Assembly: GCF_015265475.1 (NCBI RefSeq)
Contig: NZ_CP054493.1
Location: forward strand, 1-64,000
Length of the DNA stretch: 64,000 bases
Source: Candidatus Sulfurimonas marisnigri
GTDB taxonomy: Bacteria > Campylobacterota > Campylobacteria > Campylobacterales > Sulfurimonadaceae
Reading direction: 5' to 3'
The position numbers were made by a program, and so were the translations under genes. The notes under the pieces are model-generated. The model searched no databases, was not told the DNA's origin, and worked only from the letters and a program-made list of their open reading frames with translations. Shown one piece after another: positions 1,312 to 2,554 of the stretch (positions are counted from its first letter, which is position 1; every line of letters starts with the position of its first letter).

Positions 1312-1336
1312 AAACTAAAAATTAGTAAAAAAAAGA

Positions 1337-1342
1337 TATAAT
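1337..1342 (+). promoter_or_regulatory. -10 box, probable dnaN promoter
   Basis: TATAAT preceded by an A-rich tract in the dnaA-dnaN gap. Campylobacterota sigma-70 promoters typically show this -10 without a conserved -35. It abuts two candidate DnaA boxes, so DnaA may regulate transcription here (inference). Confidence 0.5.
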
Positions 1343-1344
1343 CT

Positions 1345-1482
1345 TATATGTGAACAGTTGTGAAAAAAGTTATATAGTTTAGCAACTTCTAAACTGCTCT
1401 TAAAATAGGGGTTTAATAGTGATATTCACTTATTCACTTACCACTACTACTAATACTATAATTTTATAATATAAATAGGAAT
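1345..1482 (+). other. candidate replication origin (oriC) region
   Basis: Four 9-mers with the TTCAC core reported for Campylobacterota DnaA boxes: two on the minus strand (1349-1357 and 1359-1367, tgtgaaNNN) and two abutting on the plus strand (ATATTCACT 1422-1430, TTATTCACT 1430-1438). Five bases after the last box, CTA repeats start at 1444 (CTA CTA CTA ATA CTA to 1458). On the minus strand these read 3'-GAT GAT GAT TAT GAT, the DnaA-trio pattern of bacterial unwinding elements. An A/T-only run follows (about 1457-1478). Location beside dnaA and this architecture support an origin; function is inferred. Confidence 0.7.
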
Positions 1483-1486
1483 TCGT

Positions 1487-2554
1487 ATGAAAATAATAAT
1501 ACAAAAATCTATAATAGAAAATATCTTGGTTCATACACAACCATTTTTAGAAAAAAAAGATACTTCTCAAATAACCTCACATATTTTTATGGATGTATCT
1601 AACTCAAAGTTAACTGTTAAAGCAACAGACTATGAGATTGGATTAACAGTATCTACTGATAATATAAATATAATTGGAAATGGCTGCACTACTGCAAACG
1701 GAAAAAAATTTTTAGATATTGTCAGAATTTTAAAAGATGGTGAGATTAATCTAGAAGTTAAAAATGACATGTTATATATTTCGCAATCACACTCTAATTT
1801 TAAACTTCCAACATTTTCATATAATGAGTTTCCAGAATTTCCTAATTATGAGGGTAAACCTCGTATCTCAATAGATTCACAATCTTTAGTAGAATCTTTA
1901 AAAAAAATAACACCATCAATTGACACTAATAATCCTAAGTTTGAATTAAATGGTGCTCTAATAGATATTAAACAAGATACTATAAACTTTGCATCTACAG
2001 ACACAAGAAGATTAGCAGTTGTTAATATAACAAATAATGGCAGTAGTGAATTATCTATAATTCTTCCTAAAAAAGCAATAATAGAAATTCAAAAACTTTT
2101 CTTTGATAATATTGAAATTTATTATGATGAAACTAATTTGATAATTCACTCTAACCAATATACATTCTTTACAAAACTAATAAACGGTAAATTTCCTGAA
2201 TATTCTAGAATAATTCCTAAAGAAATAGCAAATACTATAATATTGCCAAAAGCTATTATGATAGAGTCTATAAAACAAATAACTACTATATCTTCAGATG
2301 TTAAAATAACTTTTTTAAATAATTTAATAACATTTGAATCACTAAGTGACGATAATATAGAAGCAAAAACAGATATAGTTTTTGAGACAGGCTTTACCTC
2401 TCCTTTTACAATTGCAATAAATAGTAAATACCTTTTAGATTTTTTAAATACAATTAATAGTTCTGAATTCAGTATAGGTTTAAATGAAGGTAATTTACCT
2501 TTTATTTTAAGTGATAATAACTTCAGAACTGTTGTTATGCCAATAGTGATATAA
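1487..2554 (+). CDS. dnaN: DNA polymerase III beta sliding clamp
   Basis: Ring-shaped clamp that tethers DNA polymerase III to template. 355 residues, near the usual length of about 360-375, with three repeated clamp folds (roughly 1-115, 116-235, 236-355). The C-terminus (RTVVMPIVI) resembles the family ending that lines the partner-binding pocket. The start ATG at 1487 follows AGGAATTCGT, a reasonable ribosome site. It lies downstream of the candidate origin and is followed by a strong hairpin, so it may be a single-gene transcript. Confidence 0.97.
   Translation: MKIIIQKSIIENILVHTQPFLEKKDTSQITSHIFMDVSNSKLTVKATDYEIGLTVSTDNINIIGNGCTTANGKKFLDIVRILKDGEINLEVKNDMLYISQSHSNFKLPTFSYNEFPEFPNYEGKPRISIDSQSLVESLKKITPSIDTNNPKFELNGALIDIKQDTINFASTDTRRLAVVNITNNGSSELSIILPKKAIIEIQKLFFDNIEIYYDETNLIIHSNQYTFFTKLINGKFPEYSRIIPKEIANTIILPKAIMIESIKQITTISSDVKITFLNNLITFESLSDDNIEAKTDIVFETGFTSPFTIAINSKYLLDFLNTINSSEFSIGLNEGNLPFILSDNNFRTVVMPIVI

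Follow-up and report, generated by a model that had tools for sequence, protein, structure and literature searches.

The dnaA-dnaN gap and its elements

The Sulfurimonas chromosome is represented by one contig of 2,488,728 bases, and the stretch of DNA analysed here (the window, 64 kb) comprises its bases 1-64000, with base 1 being the GTG start codon of dnaA. Between dnaA and dnaN lies a gap of 175 bases (1312-1486), whose elements are collected in Table 1. Conservation was read from 85 distinct Sulfurimonadaceae dnaA-dnaN gaps, i.e. that of the present genome and those of relatives with dnaN identities of 63-86% (Sulfuricurvum among them), and a wider comparison covered 20 further genomes, 19 of which come from other families of the order. 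The 36 closest genomes belong to the same genus, Sulfurimonas, as do the nearest annotated relatives. The recognition helix of DnaA reads KDHTAISH, with the lysine at the E. coli 432 position that is typical of DnaA in the class (PMC5043019), and the present genome also encodes HobA, which is listed as one of the initiation proteins that have homologues throughout the class (PMC6052347).

Table 1. Elements in and around the dnaA-dnaN gap (window positions, unless given as contig or L002 positions)
Feature	Position	Strand	Basis or remark
dnaA	1..1311	+	Pfam Bac_DnaA 3.6e-63, Bac_DnaA_C 1.2e-23
A-tract then GATATAAT, promoter-like, probably for dnaN	1327..1342	+	conservation in 85 gaps
DnaA box 1 (CTGTTCACA)	1349..1357	-	GTGA core in 85/85 gaps; TTCAC core at 1350-1354
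DnaA box 2 (TTTTTCACA)	1359..1367	-	GTGA core in 85/85 gaps; TTCAC core at 1360-1364
DnaA box 3 remnant	1379..1387	+	GCAAC in place of TCAC core (alignment of 85 gaps)
DnaA box 4 (ATATTCACT), DUE-distal twin-box member	1422..1430	+	TTCAC in 83/85 gaps; core 1425-1429
DnaA box 5 (TTATTCACT), DUE-proximal, R1-type	1430..1438	+	TTCAC in 53, ATCAC in 21 of 85 gaps; core 1433-1437
Spacer TACCA, position of GC-rich spacer	1439..1443	+	five bases between box 5 and first trio
DnaA-trio array CTA-CTA-CTA-ATA-CTA (CTACTACTAATACTA)	1444..1458	+	3'-GAT repeats on minus strand
A/T run of putative unwinding element	1459..1482	+	ends at dnaN ribosome-binding site AGGA; read from sequence
dnaN	1487..2554	+	Pfam DNA_pol3_beta 2.7e-31
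oriC1-like box cluster	contig 2488625-2488728 (L002 9897-10000)	+	three TTCAC boxes and one ATCAC box
Hpt-HDOD protein gene	L002 8313-9896 (same numbering as cluster)		between ruvC and oriC1 cluster

The four TTCAC cores fall within 110 bp and form the densest such cluster of the window. Boxes 1 and 2 lie on the minus strand and boxes 4 and 5 on the plus strand, such that the DUE-distal oriC2 boxes 1-2 face outward from the DUE-proximal box; the 10-bp spacing from box 1 to box 2 is kept in 83 of the 85 gaps. Two inverted TTCAC-core boxes had been described at 1349-1367 in an earlier note on this DNA, and the sequence indeed holds both as 9-mers (boxes 1 and 2). The same note reported two plus-strand boxes that abut, each with TTCACT at its end; these are present (boxes 4 and 5), but rather than abutting their 9-mers overlap by one base. 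The five-base gap that it placed behind them corresponds to TACCA, and the trio array and A/T run follow just as it had them. Box 3 has a TCAC core in 78/85 gaps and has lost it in the present genome and six others. It is degenerate here, though the nearest relatives retain it.

Across the relatives the spacer (the four or five bases immediately preceding the trios) has a GC content of 60%, compared with 28% for the whole gap, and in the present genome two of its five bases are G or C; in H. pylori, the GC content of the spacer is not essential (PMC8235120). The trio run opens with CTACTACTA in 68/85 gaps and with one-base variants of it in most others. More specifically, in 75/85 gaps the distances from the ends of the two TCAC cores of the twin box to the first trio are 14 and 6 nt, the polarity of the trios is correct, and the three trios closest to the box hardly vary. 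Exactly three trios stand in register in 49/85 gaps, beyond which most genomes shift frame by one or two bases, and the ATA-CTA tail is therefore the less constrained part of the array.

At the head of the gap a TATAAT-type hexamer is found in all 85 gaps (GATATAAT in 77, GCTATAAT in six), and in 72 of them it stands 7 nt ahead of the first GTGA, that of box 1. A scan with the sigma-70 consensus found promoters no more numerous than in shuffled sequence, and GATATAAT was recognised from its conservation instead. The A-tract followed by GATATAAT presumably corresponds to the -10 element of Campylobacterota promoters, and the dnaN transcript therefore probably starts from it. With GATATAAT only 7 nt before box 1, boxes 1 and 2 would overlap the transcription start, thus probably placing a dnaN promoter inside the origin with these two boxes on its start site.

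Uniqueness, GC skew and the proposed origin

The arrangement occurs once in the chromosome: a whole-genome search for TTCAC-N3-5-TTCAC-N2-8-CTACTA returned one match in 2,488,728 bases, and CTACTACTA has a single occurrence in the 64-kb window with both strands counted. Order and spacing of the elements are kept across the 85 gaps, even where dnaN identity drops to 63%, and the twin box, spacer and trios are recognisable in most of the 20 further genomes. GC skew was sampled from stretches covering 27% of the genome, in which the cumulative minimum, at 2.476 Mb on the 2.489-Mb circle, precedes dnaA by 13 kb and the maximum lies at 1.154 Mb, while a two-arc fit to the same 27% switches at 2.48 and 1.16-1.18 Mb; on resampling, the median origin is 9 kb from dnaA. 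The earlier note had named a skew minimum far from the gap and unconserved box or trio positions in close relatives as what would speak against its proposal, and neither check refuted it: the minimum lies roughly 13 kb from dnaA (27% sampled), and the positions hold in about 75 of the 85 Sulfurimonadaceae gaps.

The contig end joins dnaA on the circle and carries, outside the 64-kb window, an oriC1-like cluster of boxes. In the relatives, the 300 nt upstream of dnaA contain on average 3.7 plus-strand and 0.7 minus-strand boxes. With this second cluster at the contig end, the origin is probably bipartite (oriC1-dnaA-oriC2). The picture drawn in the earlier note lacked oriC1, which lies beyond the DNA that the note covered.

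Taken together, the dnaA-dnaN gap is very probably the site where the chromosome opens for the start of replication, and location, boxes, spacer, trios, A/T run, conservation and skew all support the unwinding site that the earlier note had proposed there from sequence features. By analogy with close relatives, it is very likely the oriC2 half of a chromosome origin of the bipartite Campylobacterota type, which DnaA would open in the same manner. The anatomy of the gap, its uniqueness, its conservation and the nearby skew minimum are observed directly, and for DnaA binding, unwinding and looping at this locus we infer from the close relatives in which these were measured. Specifically, experiments on S. 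denitrificans, A. butzleri and W. succinogenes located unwinding exclusively in oriC2, and DnaA loops join oriC1 with oriC2 (PMC5043019). In H. pylori the trios are required for opening in vitro (PMC8235120), and box-trio elements matter for replication from its origin (PMC8287927). The parts of the present origin are the same as those experimentally shown in close relatives, and it is therefore real but ordinary.

By this model, DnaA would occupy the twin box, whose members are arranged head to tail (1422-1438), together with the outward-facing pair at 1349-1367, would be passed from the twin box over the 5-nt spacer to the trio strand (minus, with its 3'-GAT repeats) and would form a filament there that opens the A/T run, onto which the helicase would be loaded. 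A loop probably connects DnaA bound at oriC1, immediately upstream of dnaA, with oriC2. Some points weigh against the model: box 3 is destroyed here although most relatives have it, the spacer has a lower GC content than theirs, and the skew stems from partial sampling, with 85% of resamplings falling within 100 kb of dnaA.

Coupled boxes and alternative readings

The ninth bases of the head-to-head boxes 2 and 3 (1359 and 1387 in the window) co-vary across the relatives. On the dnaN tree, seven branches carry compensatory double changes (TA to CG, GC or AT) where 1.4 are expected (p=5e-5), and on the dnaA tree six branches carry co-changes where 1.1 are expected (p=1e-4); among the box pairs tested, no other shows such coupling. 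One-sided changes of these bases gave T-G six times and C-A not once. Since the two bases change in step, base pairing on the plus strand is pointed to, and it is possible, if tentative, that in most relatives boxes 2 and 3 form, besides their function in the origin, a plus-strand hairpin, in the leader RNA of dnaN or in single-stranded origin DNA. Seven compensatory changes where 1.4 are expected, the bias towards T-G and the restriction to this one pair argue for it, as does a mean folding z of -1.9. However, the minus strand folds equally well (z -1.9) and folding energy thus favours neither strand, RNAalifold returned no consensus fold in Sulfurimonas, the pair reaches an E-value of only 0.12 in an all-pairs tree null, and the remaining stem pairs contribute little covariation. 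Furthermore, Rfam gave no match at E up to 10 (for the present genome's sequence only), box 3 is missing from the present genome, and a dimeric protein reading the palindrome could yield equal coupling. The own gap of the present genome holds no stable structure (DNA fold z -0.77).

Slightly less probable again is that, in most origins of the Sulfurimonas type, boxes 2 and 3 double as the arms of a plus-strand hairpin situated just behind the conserved dnaN promoter and lost in the present genome. If so, the same bases would act both as sites for initiator binding and within a structure of RNA or single-stranded DNA, which would link the expression of dnaN, or the stability of its mRNA, to the occupancy of the origin. 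The coupling raises the testable question whether origin boxes can serve at the same time as leader structure. Neither it nor the promoter-like GATATAAT appears in the origin papers cited here. Separately, a second helix or H-type pseudoknot (AAGAGTTGTAT with ATACAGCTCTT), hinted at by some close relatives, paired no better than chance over the full tree and was rejected as a general feature.

A different role for the whole gap would be purely regulatory, with boxes that let DnaA repress or activate the dnaN promoter and with initiation elsewhere, e.g. at oriC1. The conserved GATATAAT ahead of box 1 is what would be expected of such a gap, but the twin box-spacer-trio module is its most strictly spaced part and is located over 70 nt beyond the presumed start, and the exclusive unwinding in oriC2 of three relatives (PMC5043019) also makes this reading very improbable; regulatory and origin roles are, in any case, compatible. 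The reading that A/T-rich DNA produced the boxes and trios by chance, short and low in information as these motifs are, is practically refuted by conservation, with about 75 of 85 genomes keeping the spacing; the arrangement also occurs just once in 2.49 Mb.

Relation to known origins

An oriC2 in the dnaA-dnaN gap is of a kind already known, and the present genome is a new member of it. The same bipartite architecture has been described in Sulfurimonas denitrificans, Arcobacter and Wolinella (PMC5043019), and the layout in S. denitrificans is ruvC-oriC1-dnaA-oriC2-dnaN (Jaworski et al. 2016, PMC5043019). When likened to it by published layout, not base by base, the present locus shares the genus, the position, the TTCAC-core boxes, the outward-facing arrays, a DUE with trios in the dnaA-dnaN gap and an oriC1 before dnaA. 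As there, ruvC lies upstream of dnaA, but here one gene, the HDOD/Hpt gene, intervenes between ruvC and oriC1.

With this, the origin of the Sulfurimonas chromosome is placed. Box patterns vary from genus to genus (PMC5043019), and within the Sulfurimonadaceae the order of the five boxes and the spacing from box to trio are nearly fixed. While a single DUE-proximal box was footprinted in the published work (PMC5043019), the genomes compared here conserve the two members of the twin box alike. Both are under constraint, though footprinting could not confirm the twin box.

The oriC2 of Helicobacter pylori resembles the present gap in its two tandem boxes (ts1 and ts2), spacer, about five CTA-type trios and A/T run (PMC8235120, PMC8287927), but the dnaA neighbourhood of H. 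pylori is rearranged and its spacer is GC-rich, whereas in the present genome dnaN is the next gene after dnaA and the spacer has a lower GC content. Campylobacter jejuni likewise has a box cluster, twin boxes with a 1-bp overlap and a DUE in the dnaA-dnaN gap; in contrast, its origin is monopartite, has degenerate trios and depends on boxes located within dnaA, at the 3' end of the gene (PMC6052347). Finally, the basal unwinding system of Bacillus subtilis (DnaA boxes 6/7 and trios) shows the same succession of box, short spacer, trio and A/T run, built there with TTATCCACA-type boxes and a GGCC spacer.
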